Below are positions 142 through 53,262 of a stretch of DNA of 58,877 nt, one piece after another. The notes under the pieces were generated by a model. It did not search any database. It was not told the DNA's origin and saw only the letters and a program-made list of their open reading frames with translations. Numbering within the stretch: position 1 is the stretch's first letter; each line of letters begins with the position of its first letter. The DNA comes from Lachnoclostridium sp. Lineage in GTDB: Bacteria > Bacteroidota > Bacteroidia > Bacteroidales > Muribaculaceae. A program made the translations under genes and the position numbers. Location: positions 606,356 to 665,232 of the forward strand of contig JAMPAP010000001.1 of assembly GCA_023667185.1 (NCBI GenBank), given 5' to 3'.

Positions 142-231
142 CATGATTCATCATGTCGCAGCATGATGAATCATGAGAAATCATGTGAAATCATGATGAA
201 GCTTGATGAAGCATGAGGCATCATGATTTTT
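142..231. repeat. Tandem array of nine 10-bp units (CATGATGAAN type)
   Basis: CATG or a one-base variant (CTTG once) starts every 10 bases at 142, 152, 162, 172, 182, 192, 202, 212 and 222. The remaining six positions vary around ATGAAT or ATGAAG. On the minus strand the array starts in the last codons of the small gene ending at 221, whose TGA stop is part of the first unit. A second array of the same unit lies at 14375-14424. Unit length and lack of spacers rule out CRISPR. Confidence 0.85.
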
Positions 232-364
232 TCTTGGGGGAGGGGTCGCTGCCTTTGACGGCGGCGAATGGCGCGAACTGGGCTGCGCGGTCGGCCAAAG
301 GCATGGGCTTGTGGCGTTTCGATACGGGGCGCGGGAGATTGATTATGTCGTCGTAAGGTGTCAT
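221..364 (-). CDS. 47-residue YolD-like partner of the Y-family polymerase
   Basis: A short minus-strand ORF whose ATG overlaps the polymerase stop as ATGA (361-364), implying translational coupling. The peptide starts MTPYDDIINLPRPVSKRHKP and continues with MPLADRAAQFAPFAAV. From memory this closely resembles the conserved N-terminus (YDDI.LP..VS...P.M...DRAAQF.PFAAL) of small YolD-like proteins encoded beside UmuC-type polymerases in Firmicutes. Those are usually about 100 residues or more, so this one appears truncated. After FAAV it ends in a short basic tail, KKKS, and its stop codon lies in the 10-bp repeat array. The function of such proteins is unknown; a role in polymerase control is inferred from context. 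Confidence 0.8.
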   Translation of the reverse strand: MTPYDDIINLPRPVSKRHKPMPLADRAAQFAPFAAVKGSDPSPKKKS

Positions 365-1842
365 GCTTTGTGTCCTCCTATTTGTGAGTTGCGGTCGCGC
401 TGGGTGGCACCGTCGGCAAAGTTAAGACCTTTGAGGACAACGTTTTTGCCAAAGCGGTTGCGGAGTCGCAGAATGGTCTCCTGGCGGCGTCGTTCGCGTG
501 CAAGGCGTCGCTCTTCAGCCTCTCGCTCGCGGGCAAGAGCTTCATAGTCAGTAAAGAGGTCGAGCTGGAGCTCCTCCTCAGGCTGCGGGGCATGATCCTC
601 GGGAAGAAGACGGTTGACCGAGAGGGTGAGGCGGCGGACGGTGAGGTCATGGTTCACTATCTTCTTGAACAGCTCCACGATATGCTCGGTGATAATCATC
701 GACGACGAGGTGTAGCGGCCTAAGTTGGCAGTGCCGTGGGCGTGATAAGGCACCTGACGGCCGTAGTGGTCTACGGAAACGGGGCCATCGTAATGGACGG
801 CCGGGTTGGTGAGGTTTTCGATGTCGTAGCCTACGGTAAGGACAATCTGGTCAGTGACCAAACGCTTGTCCACCAGCTCAAGAGCCACCTCGTCGGCCAT
901 CTCCTGCACCACCGTCAGCGCCTTCTCGAATGGATAAGGAGCGGAGAGCACCTGGCCGCTCGACATCGAGCGTGAGCCCGGGCGGTAAGCCTTGACCAGA
1001 TCCATAGTCACCGGCTCATATCCCCAGGCGTGGTCGATGAGCAGCTCGGCGTTGACGCCAAACTCTTTATAGAGCCACTCCTCGTTGCGGAGCGAGAAAC
1101 GAGCCAGGTCGCCCATGGTGTGCACTCCCGCCTGCTCAAGGCGGTGTGCTGTGCCGCGGCCAACGCGCCAGAAGTCAGTCAGCGGCACGTGAGTCCATAG
1201 CTGGCGGCGGTAGCTCATCTCGTCGAGCTCAGCAATGCGCACCCCGTCACTGTCAGGGGGCATCTTCTTGGCCACGATATCCATGGCCACCTTGCAGAGA
1301 TACATATTGGTGCCGATGCCCGCTGTGGCGGTAATCCCGGTTTCGGCCAGGACATCGCGTATCAGCCGCATGGCCAGCTCGTGAGGTGTCAGGCGGTAAG
1401 TCTTGAGATATGACGTGACGTCAATTATCACCTCGTCAATGGAATAGACGTGGATATCCTCCGGGGCGATGTGACGCAGGTAGATATCATAAATGCGGGT
1501 GGAATAGTCGACATAGAGCTGCATGCGCGGCGGTGCCACGAGATAGTCTACGGCCAGGTCACGACGCGCGGCGAGCTCGGCACCCGAGGCAGACTTTCCG
1601 GCCCGGCCACGGCCGCGGTTGACCTCCCTGACGCGCTGCACCACCTCAAAGAGGCGGGGGCGTCCCGGGATGCCGAAGGCCTTCAGGGCAGGCGACACGG
1701 CAAGGCAGATGGTCTTTTCAGTGCGCGAGGCATCGGCCACGACGAGGCAGGCGTCGAGCGGGTTGAGGCCTCGCTCCACACACTCCACCGAGGCGTAAAA
1801 CGACTTTAAGTCAATAGCTATGTAGCTACGATCCGGCGTCAA
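361..1842 (-). CDS. Y-family (UmuC/ImpB-type) translesion DNA polymerase
   Basis: 493 residues. The palm starts with YIAIDLKSFYASVE (about residues 7-20), carrying the first metal-binding Asp. The second catalytic motif is YSIDEVIIDVT, the SxDE signature of Y-family enzymes. A helix-hairpin-helix region (RVGRGTAHRLEQAGV) and a little-finger domain follow. Near the C-terminus QLDLF (about 426-430) matches the beta-clamp binding pentapeptide, and a charged Arg/Glu-rich stretch follows it. The family copies damaged templates in the SOS or other stress responses. It sits between a TM2 protein (ATGA overlap at 1839-1842) and the YolD-like gene (ATGA at 361-364). It reads as an UmuC/DinB relative; no UmuD is present. 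Confidence 0.92.
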   Translation of the reverse strand: MTPDRSYIAIDLKSFYASVECVERGLNPLDACLVVADASRTEKTICLAVSPALKAFGIPGRPRLFEVVQRVREVNRGRGRAGKSASGAELAARRDLAVDYLVAPPRMQLYVDYSTRIYDIYLRHIAPEDIHVYSIDEVIIDVTSYLKTYRLTPHELAMRLIRDVLAETGITATAGIGTNMYLCKVAMDIVAKKMPPDSDGVRIAELDEMSYRRQLWTHVPLTDFWRVGRGTAHRLEQAGVHTMGDLARFSLRNEEWLYKEFGVNAELLIDHAWGYEPVTMDLVKAYRPGSRSMSSGQVLSAPYPFEKALTVVQEMADEVALELVDKRLVTDQIVLTVGYDIENLTNPAVHYDGPVSVDHYGRQVPYHAHGTANLGRYTSSSMIITEHIVELFKKIVNHDLTVRRLTLSVNRLLPEDHAPQPEEELQLDLFTDYEALAREREAEERRLARERRRQETILRLRNRFGKNVVLKGLNFADGATQRDRNSQIGGHKA

Positions 1843-2345
1843 AAGATGGGGAATGAGGAGGGCGTACTGACGTATTTACGGGTGAACTCCTGATTAGTCA
1901 TACACAGCATCAATATGCCCTGAATCAGAGCAATGATACTGGTGATGAGGCCGAGTGTACCGCAAGTGCAGAGCGTGCAGAGCAGGAACACGATACCGGG
2001 AGTCATCTTGCCGAGATAGAAATAATGTACGCCAAGCGAGCCGAGGAAGATGGCGAGCAGGGCGGCCACACCGCGCGACTTGCCAAACGGATCGGAGGCA
2101 AACAGATCGTTGGCCAGATAAGAGGGCGAGCCGTTGATGTAGTTATTATAACCCGGCTGACCGTAAGGCGGCTGCTGCTGACCGTAAGACTGTTGCTGCT
2201 GGGTGAATGGCGGCTGCTGCTGGGTGAATGGGGGCTGCTGGGAAGGCTCCTGAGAATTGAATTCTCTCAGGTCAGCATGGCACATGGGGCACTCGAGGTC
2301 GCGGTCGCTTACAAATCCACCGCATTTAGGGCATTTCTTATACAT
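1839..2345 (-). CDS. TM2-domain protein with N-terminal zinc ribbon
   Basis: 168 residues. The N-terminus MYKKCPKCGG...ECPMC has two CxxC pairs (C5, C8, C19, C22), a zinc-ribbon arrangement. A Gln/Pro-rich linker follows (about 33-68) with repeated PPFTQQQ units encoded by an imperfect 21-base repeat. The C-terminal part, from about residue 88, has two hydrophobic segments (LLAIFLGSLGVHYFYLG and a second starting GIVFLLCTLC) typical of the TM2 domain, with a conserved G.H.FYLG. It is likely an inner-membrane protein of unknown role. It is first in the operon with the Y-family polymerase, overlapping it by ATGA. The coupling to a translesion polymerase has no obvious functional explanation. 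Confidence 0.88.
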   Translation of the reverse strand: MYKKCPKCGGFVSDRDLECPMCHADLREFNSQEPSQQPPFTQQQPPFTQQQQSYGQQQPPYGQPGYNNYINGSPSYLANDLFASDPFGKSRGVAALLAIFLGSLGVHYFYLGKMTPGIVFLLCTLCTCGTLGLITSIIALIQGILMLCMTNQEFTRKYVSTPSSFPIF

Positions 2346-2365
2346 GATAATAATGGTTTAGATTG

Positions 2366-51809: not shown

Positions 51810-53102
51810 TTATTCGGGGCGTTTTGTGCGCTTGCCGTAGCCGTATTCTGCGGTGTCGCCGAGCTGCTCCTGGATGCGGAGAAGCTGGTTGTACTTGGCC
51901 ATACGGTCAGAGCGGCTTGCTGAACCGGTCTTGATCTGTCCGGCGTTGGTAGCAACGGCGATGTCAGCGATAGTGGCATCTTCGGTTTCGCCGGAGCGGT
52001 GAGAGATGACAGCGGTGTATCCGTTACGCTGAGCGAGCTCAACGGCGCGGAGGGTTTCAGTAAGTGAACCGATCTGGTTAACTTTCACGAGGATAGAGTT
52101 AGCGCAGCCGAGTTCGATACCTTTCTTGAGGTATTTAACGTTAGTAACGAAGAGATCGTCACCTACGAGCTGGCAGCGGTTGCCGATCATATCGGTAAGG
52201 ATCTTCCAGCCTTCCCAGTCGTTCTGATCCATACCGTCCTCGATAGAGTCGATGGGGTATTTTTCAACGAGGGTTTTGAGGTATTCAGCCTGCTCTTTAG
52301 AGGTGAGCTTGGGAGCGTCGGCACCCTGTTTCCAGGTGTAGTCATATTTGCCATCTTTGTAGAACTCAGAAGCGGCGCAGTCAAGACCGATGGTAACGTC
52401 CTTACCGGGAACGTAACCGGCTTTTTCGATAGCCTGCATGATTACTGTAAGAGCGTCCTCAGTGCCATCGAGAGCGGGAGCGAAACCACCTTCGTCACCT
52501 ACGGCGGTAGAGAGGCCGCGGTCGTGGAGCACTTTCTTGAGGTTGTGGAATACTTCAGTACCCATGCGGATGCCTTCCTTGAAGCAGCAAGCGCCGATAG
52601 GACGGATCATAAATTCCTGGAAGCAGATGGGGGCGTCAGAGTGAGCGCCACCGTTGATGATGTTCATCATGGGGACGGGGAGAACGTAAGAGTTGCATCC
52701 GCCGATGTATTTGTAGAGGGGGAGGTCGAGGTAGTCAGCAGCAGCTTTTGCTACGGCGAGAGATACGCCGAGGATAGCGTTAGCACCGAGGTTTGACTTG
52801 GTGTCAGTACCGTCGAGAGCGAGCATAGCTTCGTCGATCTTGATCTGATCAAGAGCGCTCATGCCTTTGAGGGCTTCAGCGATGGGGCCGTTAACGTTAG
52901 CGACAGCTTTGGTTACGCCCTTGCCCATGTAACGGTTTTTGTCACCGTCGCGAAGTTCGAGAGCCTCGTTTTCGCCGGTAGAAGCACCTGAGGGAACAGA
53001 TGCGCGGCCGAAAGCGCCTGATTCGAGGATAACGTCAACTTCTACAGTAGGATTGCCACGTGAATCGAGGACTTCACGACCGATAATTTTTTCGATTTTC
53101 AT
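51810..53102 (-). CDS. eno: Enolase
   Basis: 430 residues. The N-terminal signature [11 protein letters not shown], the catalytic E-loop and metal residues ([34 protein letters not shown]) and the family signature [14 protein letters not shown] are present. [27 protein letters not shown] is also intact. It converts 2-phosphoglycerate to phosphoenolpyruvate. It has its own -7 box. The acquired DUF1016/higA block lies between it and groEL. Confidence 0.98.
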
Positions 53103-53144
53103 ATCAGATATGTATTAATAGAATTGAGTTTTTATTTTCGCGTA

Positions 53145-53152
53145 CAAAGTTA
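53145..53152 (-). promoter_or_regulatory. -7 box TAACTTTG for eno
   Basis: An exact TAnnTTTG on the minus strand, 42 bases upstream of the eno ATG. Confidence 0.65.
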
Positions 53153-53208
53153 GTAAAAAAGTTTGATTTGGTAAATTTTTTTCATGACAAAGATTGGGGG
53201 GCAGGGAG

Positions 53209-53262
53209 GAGAAGTCTGACGAGTCTGACAAGTCTGACGAGTCTGACGTATCCGACGGGTCA
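53209..53262. repeat. Six 9-bp units starting at a stop codon
   Basis: Read on the minus strand from the TGA of the hydrolase gene, the units are TGACCCGTC, GGATACGTC, AGACTCGTC, AGACTTGTC, AGACTCGTC and AGACTTCTC. The stop is the first three bases of unit one. The unit keeps GTC in the last three positions in five of six copies. Confidence 0.85.

Follow-up and report, generated by a model that had tools for sequence, protein, structure and literature searches.

The 58,877-nucleotide window analysed here, from an assembly named Lachnoclostridium sp. that GTDB places in the Muribaculaceae (GCA_023667185.1, contig JAMPAP010000001.1, positions 606,356 to 665,232), holds short tandem arrays at the stop codons of unrelated genes. 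Where related genomes allow comparison, we think that these arrays are mostly the arms of small elements inserted between genes, resembling intervening sequences (IVS) and having inverted tandem-repeat arms, a reading to which we give a probability of roughly 0.55. One candidate element of the window follows a ClpC-like gene:

22386..24926, plus strand: ClpC-like gene with array-coded 3′ end (Pfam AAA_2, ClpB_D2-small and Clp_N; orthologues)
24904..24940, plus strand: left arm (TTAGTTG)n, encoding the final four residues of ClpC, VVSC, and the stop
24986..25082, minus strand: repetitive extragenic palindrome (REP) hairpin unit between the arms (BLAST to dispersed REP; pattern match with the junction to the right arm)
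25093..25174, plus strand: right arm (ACTAAAA/ACTCGAA/ACTAACG)n, inverted relative to the left arm and ending ahead of the gene start at 25198
25198..26979, plus strand: sulfatase-like gene downstream of the element (PF00884; start from the gene caller)

Tandem Repeats Finder (TRF) places the array at the ClpC stop at 24911-24934 (3.4 units). The original prediction, a list of arrays at stops, had overlooked the longer 7-bp array at 25093-25174, which adjoins a gene start (25198) and is the inverted partner of the 24911 array. The RNA of 24900-25180 is predicted to fold with its arms paired (z -10).

Inverted arms and their cargo

Wherever two arrays shared one gap-free intergenic space, (TTAGTTG)n stood on the left and (ACTAAAA)n on the right, in 11 of 11 spaces. 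What the arms enclose varies: a few bases, a REP hairpin, two REPs in inverted orientation, a REP together with a Y1 transposase gene, or a gene for IVP (S23), the intervening-sequence protein of 23S rRNA. The proposed element would thus run gene A, (TTAGTTG)n, cargo, (ACTAAAA)n, gene B, its arms being the period-7 arrays and perhaps some of the other arrays too.

PF05635, the IVP family (related solved chains: 2gsc and 2rld), was detected in 19 of the 27 genomes of the genus at E 1e-5, with 16 over the cut-off. This genome has a single full IVP gene (E 3e-41), which lies between 7-bp arms; a search of the sampled sequence gave no further copy. Seven of 19 further copies in the genus were covered, and inverted tandem arrays bracket all seven by eye (8/8 with the copy of this genome). 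Their units measure 7-8 bp in five, about 14 bp in congener G005 and much longer in G023; TRF alone gave arrays on both sides at four of the six loci scanned and on one side at a fifth. The copies of G006 and G004 share one host site, and at the G005 locus the left array encodes the C-terminus of the upstream open reading frame (ORF).

A tblastn search of plasmids with one IVP yielded 21 records representing 19 distinct loci, mostly cyanobacterial; at several of them the IVP gene separates members of a single operon. Within 150 bp of the gene, 17 of the 19 have an array of period 6-8 on at least one side and 11 have one on both sides, compared with 2 and 1 of 112 control genes in 35-kb stretches of three of these plasmids. 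Called genes with period 7-8 arrays on both sides numbered 3/609 in this genome and 2/825 in relatives. Computed RNA pairing between flanks exceeded all 19 shuffles at 20 of 27 IVP loci (8/8 genus, 12/19 plasmid) and at 6/60 control genes of this genome (p=4e-9 for the difference). In the loci examined the IVP genes lie between protein genes, outside rRNA, and for that reason we call the elements IVS-like, not rRNA IVS. Three cyanobacterial plasmid loci (L371, L375, L378) have IVP genes inside CRISPR gene clusters (cas10/cmr3-family gene; cas6/cas4), and in Nostoc sp. ATCC 53789 the gene lies on each of three plasmids (L373, L385, L388), beside arrays with a different unit in every case.

The REP query had 58 matches in the genome, intergenic and including many palindromic copies. 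REP and array occur together in 7 of 388 intergenic spaces (22 with an array, 21 with a REP; odds ratio 11.7, p=5e-5), an association that persists among spaces of at least 150 bp (odds ratio 5.0, p=0.007). Both Y1 genes of this kind (PF01797) in the genome are flanked by REPs and lie in islands with arrays (L009:5181-5609 and L020:13151-13534), the nearest array being 0.9 kb away in the latter; among 11 Y1 loci of the genus, four, from four genomes and with differing units, have period-7 or period-14 arrays nearby. Y1 and REP may represent a second cargo or a helper. No GTAG/CGTC tag at the stem foot was evident beside the REP core in our list of REP-array junctions, and no reverse transcriptase (PF00078) was found in this genome, whose assembly is 93% complete.

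Occupied and empty sites

Synteny was examined at 18 of 20 chosen array sites (all but numbers 12 and 17); the flanking genes were found together in congeners at six (0, 3, 10, 13, 14, 15), and the site of an ABC-F-like gene made a seventh. Renumbering these seven, an insert is present here and missing elsewhere at four. At site 1 the ABC-F-like gene and its convergent neighbour overlap by 13 nt in G001, G005 and G018, while here a 139-bp arm-short spacer-arm insert stops both genes. At site 2 those three congeners have 15 nt between two operon genes, where this genome has 267 bp of arm-REP-arm after an intact stop. Site 3 measures 15 nt in G001 and 490 bp here, with the IVP gene between arms, and site 4 measures 42 nt in G001 and 287 bp here, with a REP and one arm. 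Presence against absence between species at these four sites is, on sequence comparison, insertion. By type, all three comparable array pairs are insertions, and one of the four solo arrays came with an insertion.

Dispersal of the heptamer and species-specific units

The differing units had been taken in the original prediction to mean that no single dispersed element was involved. That does not hold: both 10-bp arrays of the window are built of ATCATGATG(A/C), and copies of the 7-bp unit are scattered over the genome. The tandem 7-bp pattern, with up to 2 mismatches, matched 287 times forward and 229 times in reverse in the 2.29-Mb genome, compared with 2 and 0 for the reversed control. A broader exact heptamer pattern gave 407 matches in this genome, and among 26 other genomes of the genus it matched only G004 (1) and G014 (2). 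The reversed control of this broader pattern matched 17 times in G001, 30 in G005 and 2 in G018, which pointed to other units in those genomes. In samples from 16 relatives the units included AAACCCT, AATCATG and AAGGATT (G005), AATTACT (G014), a 9-bp AATAGGNCT (G004) and AACTCTGAT (G013); several relatives showed few or zero arrays within the 60-100 kb sampled. The period-7 family is dispersed and species-specific.

Two simpler rules were tried and rejected. Orientation by replication strand had been suggested by a strand-clustered list; both orientations occur along contig C11, and orientation tracks the side of the intergenic space. One unit per genome fails too, since in G004, G014 and G005 the units of the IVP arms are not those of the main arrays sampled from the same genome, and the IVP copies on the three Nostoc plasmids have unlike units. 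As a side observation, 20 kb of a congener (L034, G004:C20:20001-40000) holds eight arrays outside called genes, mostly of a 9-bp CCTATTAGG-like family. Assembly gaps or contig ends fall inside heptamer arrays (L005:15640-15739, L015:1-166, contigs C15, C16 and C29), so short-read assemblies probably lose copies.

Placement relative to genes

Placement was tested in 850 kb (37%) of the genome, with 51 arrays of period 7-10 compared with random placement in the same spaces; genes were called with a home-made hexamer caller, on which these tests depend. All but one of 41 period-7 arrays lie outside genes and the remaining one straddles a stop, while 13 of 15 period-12 arrays lie inside genes. 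Of 50 stop sides, 16 had an array within 12 bp, where random placement gives 10.5 (p=0.02); of 52 start sides, 6 did, with 5.8 at random. Overlap with the coding sequence occurred at 9 stops, against 5.8 at random (p=0.08), and at 1 start, against 3.2. The same test on 31 arrays of congeners and family relatives, from which 8 were dropped (6 without a neighbour, 2 inside genes), gave arrays within 12 bp at 12/35 stop sides (6.9 expected, p=0.01) and 2/27 start sides (4.0 expected). Overlap with the coding end was seen there at 10/35 stop sides (3.8 expected, p=0.001), three of the ten being near-identical copies in one genome, G007, and at 0/27 start sides (2.2 expected).

The stop bias is thus real but modest, and it recurs in congeners; what stands out more is the intergenic position of the arrays, on the start side of genes as well as on the stop side. 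The expectation that arrays would be tied to stops when set against shuffled positions stands insofar as stops are favoured over starts, here and in relatives, but 5′ ends hold arrays too. Likewise nearly all period-7 arrays are outside genes, as had been supposed, yet they are not confined to 3′ ends and also abut starts. With insertions at four of the seven comparable sites and other arrays abutting starts, an amplification process acting at 3′ ends as such is not supported.

Stop codons in the units and replaced 3′ ends

Replacement of native 3′ ends, one of the roles first proposed for the arrays, is borne out, most clearly at ClpC and at one convergent pair. In ClpC the conserved tail after DKL(S/T)T (e.g., EIRHPE) has been swapped for the array-coded VVSC and stop; the end of this gene was covered in 22 congeners, and all 22 have another C-terminus and no array. 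The last one or two codons and the stop of the ABC-F-like gene are array-coded, as are the final two to three residues of an O-methyltransferase and of the gene at C11:478319-479080; the tails of these latter two vary among congeners, which makes a weaker case for replacement. At the congener loci of the ABC-F-like gene, the O-methyltransferase and C11:478319-479080 (22, 24 and 25 loci), TRF found no array starting within 15 nt of the stop. Farther out or in degenerate form, G010 has a 9-bp array 19 nt past the ABC-F stop, and among orthologues of C11:478319-479080, G005 has a 9-bp array 46 nt past the stop and G004 a degenerate heptamer directly 3′ of it. The next gene of ClpC, of the O-methyltransferase and of C11:478319-479080 was not found in any congener flank examined, and the distant ClpC loci were of no use for synteny.

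The favouring of stops can be put down to the units themselves containing stop codons. Among strong period-7 genome-by-unit types from the sampled relatives, 10/10 contain a stop codon whichever strand is read, where shuffling of the units predicts 3.2, and at lower score 13/18 do (5.1 expected); these types are not all independent, several being variants of one family. As a universal rule, stops on both strands were rejected: in 67 other loci, nearly all from Bacteroidota, 3 of 19 unit types (periods 7, 8, 10 and 11) have them, with 3.05 expected, and plasmid arms such as GGGAAAA contain no stop.

Proposed mechanism and alternative explanations

An arm entering the 3′ coding end of a gene would bring stop codons that end the protein within the first units. 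Such events would survive, and arrays would therefore look anchored at stops. On the transcript the two arms are predicted to pair into a stem, and by analogy with the S23-bearing IVS of 23S rRNA we infer that RNase III would cut the element from the mRNA between the two genes. Units would change in number and sequence by slippage and by copying from arm to arm, yielding species-specific families, and solo arrays would be decayed or locally grown arms.

Several findings weigh against this reading. At site 5 a solo array before a start lies in 173 nt here and 112 (G005) or 116 nt (G001) elsewhere, and to judge by the sequence it perhaps grew from a similar 5′ untranslated region (UTR). At site 6 (137 nt here, 131 nt in G001) a solo array replaces native sequence and last codons with no net insertion, and at site 7, a convergent pair, a solo array fills 60 nt, while in G001 the neighbour's frame reads on for roughly that length, with a 13-nt overlap; a coding tail has thus given way to the array, and nothing was gained in net length. 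Inspection of the four empty sites by eye revealed no target-site duplication, though the arms blur the borders there. One array pair, across a 100-N gap and excluded from the 11, has both arms in the same orientation; the arms of a pair tend toward different sub-types (permutation p=0.006), so that they pair imperfectly, and at the ABC-F site the predicted fold is weak (z -1.5). The genome has only one full IVP gene, the other ten array pairs in the sample being without one; 8 of the 19 plasmid IVP loci are without arrays on one or both sides, one plasmid pair is direct, and inversion between left and right flanks beats shuffles in only 10/19. Finally, such arrays are missing from 14 of 21 REP spaces and from 7 of the 11 Y1 loci in the genus.

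Sites 6 and 7, without net insertion, and site 5, with its seed-like 5′ UTR in a congener, would suit a local amplification in which slippage expands chance intergenic seeds and survives best where the unit supplies a stop. To that extent the local process of the original prediction stands, and the four insertions among seven sites go against it. Species-specific units would fit it as well. Among long simple repeats, heptamers are the most frequent kind in many bacteria, and polymerase slippage has been proposed for them (Mrazek, as cited in an extract of PMC4679880). Slippage fails, however, to account for 11/11 inverted pairing, for genes carried between the arms, for the recurrence of one unit family across many loci or for the gains of 139-490 bp at four sites, and we consider it unlikely. 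Alternatively, the heptamer arms might belong to a REP element moved by Y1, in the manner of TnpA-REP, with IVP an accidental passenger. The 58 REP matches, the spaces shared by REPs and arrays, the Y1 loci with arrays in four genomes and fixed-looking junctions such as GTTAGTTCGAGTTGAAAGAGGC would all agree with this. The array-free REP spaces and Y1 loci just given tell against it, as do the 6 of 11 array pairs without REP and the plasmid IVP loci, which have arms and no annotated Y1 gene in the stretches covered (two of them unannotated); we hold it improbable.

That the repeats serve as transcription terminators or stabilisers of mRNA 3′ ends we regard as very improbable. Compared with shuffles, five single arrays gave z of -4.0 (140, folding better than 200 shuffles), -7.0 (14373), -4.9 (18261), -2.1 (41383) and -0.7 (53209, no special fold), so three of five fold well, as does the whole 24900-25180 element; spaces with arrays are often convergent (6/22 against 42/388 of all spaces). 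Yet arrays also stand directly before starts (the 6 of 52 start sides above), congeners manage without arrays at the same stops, the ABC-F site folds weakly as noted, and the 14373 hairpin is followed by A's, not U's.

The inserted-element reading can be extended to a class of IVS elements across phyla, lying between protein genes with inverted heptamer arms and an S23/IVP gene, of which the orphan heptamers of cyanobacteria, Xanthomonas, Beggiatoaceae and Bacteroidota would be ORF-less copies, all cut out of mRNAs by RNase III; this is a tentative proposal that we would sooner doubt than adopt. The S23/IVP ORF is not present in all known IVS. Were the extension true, operons would be split without breaking proteins, and stop-rich arms would overwrite gene ends. 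The elements would give one origin for two puzzles, scattered intergenic heptamers and S23/IVP genes outside rRNA; they would predict mRNA cut positions and account for gene 3′ ends replaced in one lineage, both testable by ordinary RNA mapping.

Relation to known systems

The S23-bearing IVS of 23S rRNA is described as a selfish element with complementary ends, excised by RNase III, and has tandem heptamers before its ORF whose number varies by strain (PMC4990558). The elements here resemble it in the IVP gene between pairing ends and the tandem heptamers beside the ORF, and differ in lying between protein genes, in arms that are long tandem arrays and in having REP/Y1 cargo too.

The heptamers GGGAATC of Xanthomonas and GGGGA(C/T)T of Nostoc are intergenic, in sense orientation just past stops (including stop overlap) and antisense before starts, with 70 inverted pairs in one genome and 83% conserved between two Xanthomonas species; the authors generally saw no link to mobile elements (extract of PMC4692102). 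Intergenic 7-nt arrays, this polarity and inverted pairs are common to both. Those units are G-rich and quadruplex-forming (PMC4692102), whereas ours are AT-rich, units such as ACTAAAA and ACTAACA having no G tracts, and the arrays tested here are missing from congeners. TAACTGA repeats occur in Beggiatoaceae, cyanobacteria and five Bacteroidetes, mostly near starts; they run forward to starts, with one set reversed directly after a stop and some overlapping stops, and contain stop codons in all forward frames (PMC4679880). They are thus like our arrays in their position at gene borders, their stop overlap and the stops in their units, and the extract of PMC4679880 gave no link of TAACTGA to REP, Y1 or IVP.

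REP elements with their transposases (RAYT) are likewise intergenic high-copy palindromes, and here a Y1 gene (PF01797) lies in some islands; REP ends often supply the stop codon of neighbours (PMC3733652). Tandem heptamer arms were not found described in the extracts of PMC3733652 and PMC6006769. The motif of the Y1 gene is near that of subclass 1.2 (YIKSQREHH against YIKNQKEHH), but with NHVH against DH[IV]H, and for this subclass the extract of PMC6006769 lists no REP structures. Terminal inverted repeats, as in miniature inverted-repeat transposable elements (MITEs), correspond to the arms here. The MITE BrickBuilt of Porphyromonas gingivalis, with a 23-nt minisatellite, 19 copies and distances of 49-591 nt from genes, is also an intergenic tandem-repeat element of Bacteroidales with inverted-repeat ends (PMC4596501); there, unlike here, the tandem repeat is the element body, and no inverted array pair or cargo gene was found described in the extract. 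In the open-licence PMC literature, judged mostly by titles and abstract openings, we found no report that connects IVP genes with paired heptamer arrays lying between protein genes. Nor did we find there inverted arrays as arms, IVP as cargo and empty sites between protein genes described together; heptamers in rRNA IVS were already reported (PMC4990558).

Other arrays and features of the window

A TRF scan of the whole window together with direct reading of the sequence was the basis for array borders. Seven of the short arrays first listed were confirmed with slightly corrected borders, and a weak 8-bp case after 27647 had no TRF row. The description of the stop as lying in or beside the first unit proved right for the listed arrays, at 140-231 with respect to a 47-aa ORF. 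Besides the ClpC array, the arrays and the REP units without heptamer arms are:

140..231 (TRF 140-227): 10-bp array ATCATGATGA, unit self-complementary, at the stop of a 47-aa ORF (221-364, minus strand)
14373..14424 (TRF 14373-14420): 10-bp array ATCATGATGC, at the stop of the O-methyltransferase gene (13744-14379)
16884..16978, minus strand: REP unit without heptamer arms (BLAST and pattern match)
18261..18308: 8-bp array of two abutting inverted halves, TCAAATTG and CAATTTGA, at the stop of a TPR gene (18309-19535, minus strand); two overlapping TRF rows at 18263-18308
30147..30207, plus strand: 32-bp unit in two copies (TRF 1.9 units) at a stop (TRF)
30305..30376, minus strand: REP unit without heptamer arms (BLAST and pattern match)
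41383..41413: 9-bp array ATAATTCTT, at the stop of a LUD-domain gene
53209..53262 (TRF 53212-53261): 9-bp array AGTCTGACG, at the stop of a minus-strand hydrolase gene

The 47-aa ORF, presumably YolD-like, lies directly upstream of a Y-family polymerase gene (PF00817; both on the minus strand, region 221-1842), its stop inside the 10-bp array. Adjoining the other 10-bp array, a minus-strand tRNA-Asp followed by a hairpin and T run (by eye) occupies 14425-14561. Between two convergent genes at 18035-18200 lies a long inverted repeat, taagtgacgataaaaaaataacttggtaaa ... tttaccaagttatttttttttcgtcacttag, that is MITE-like by eye.

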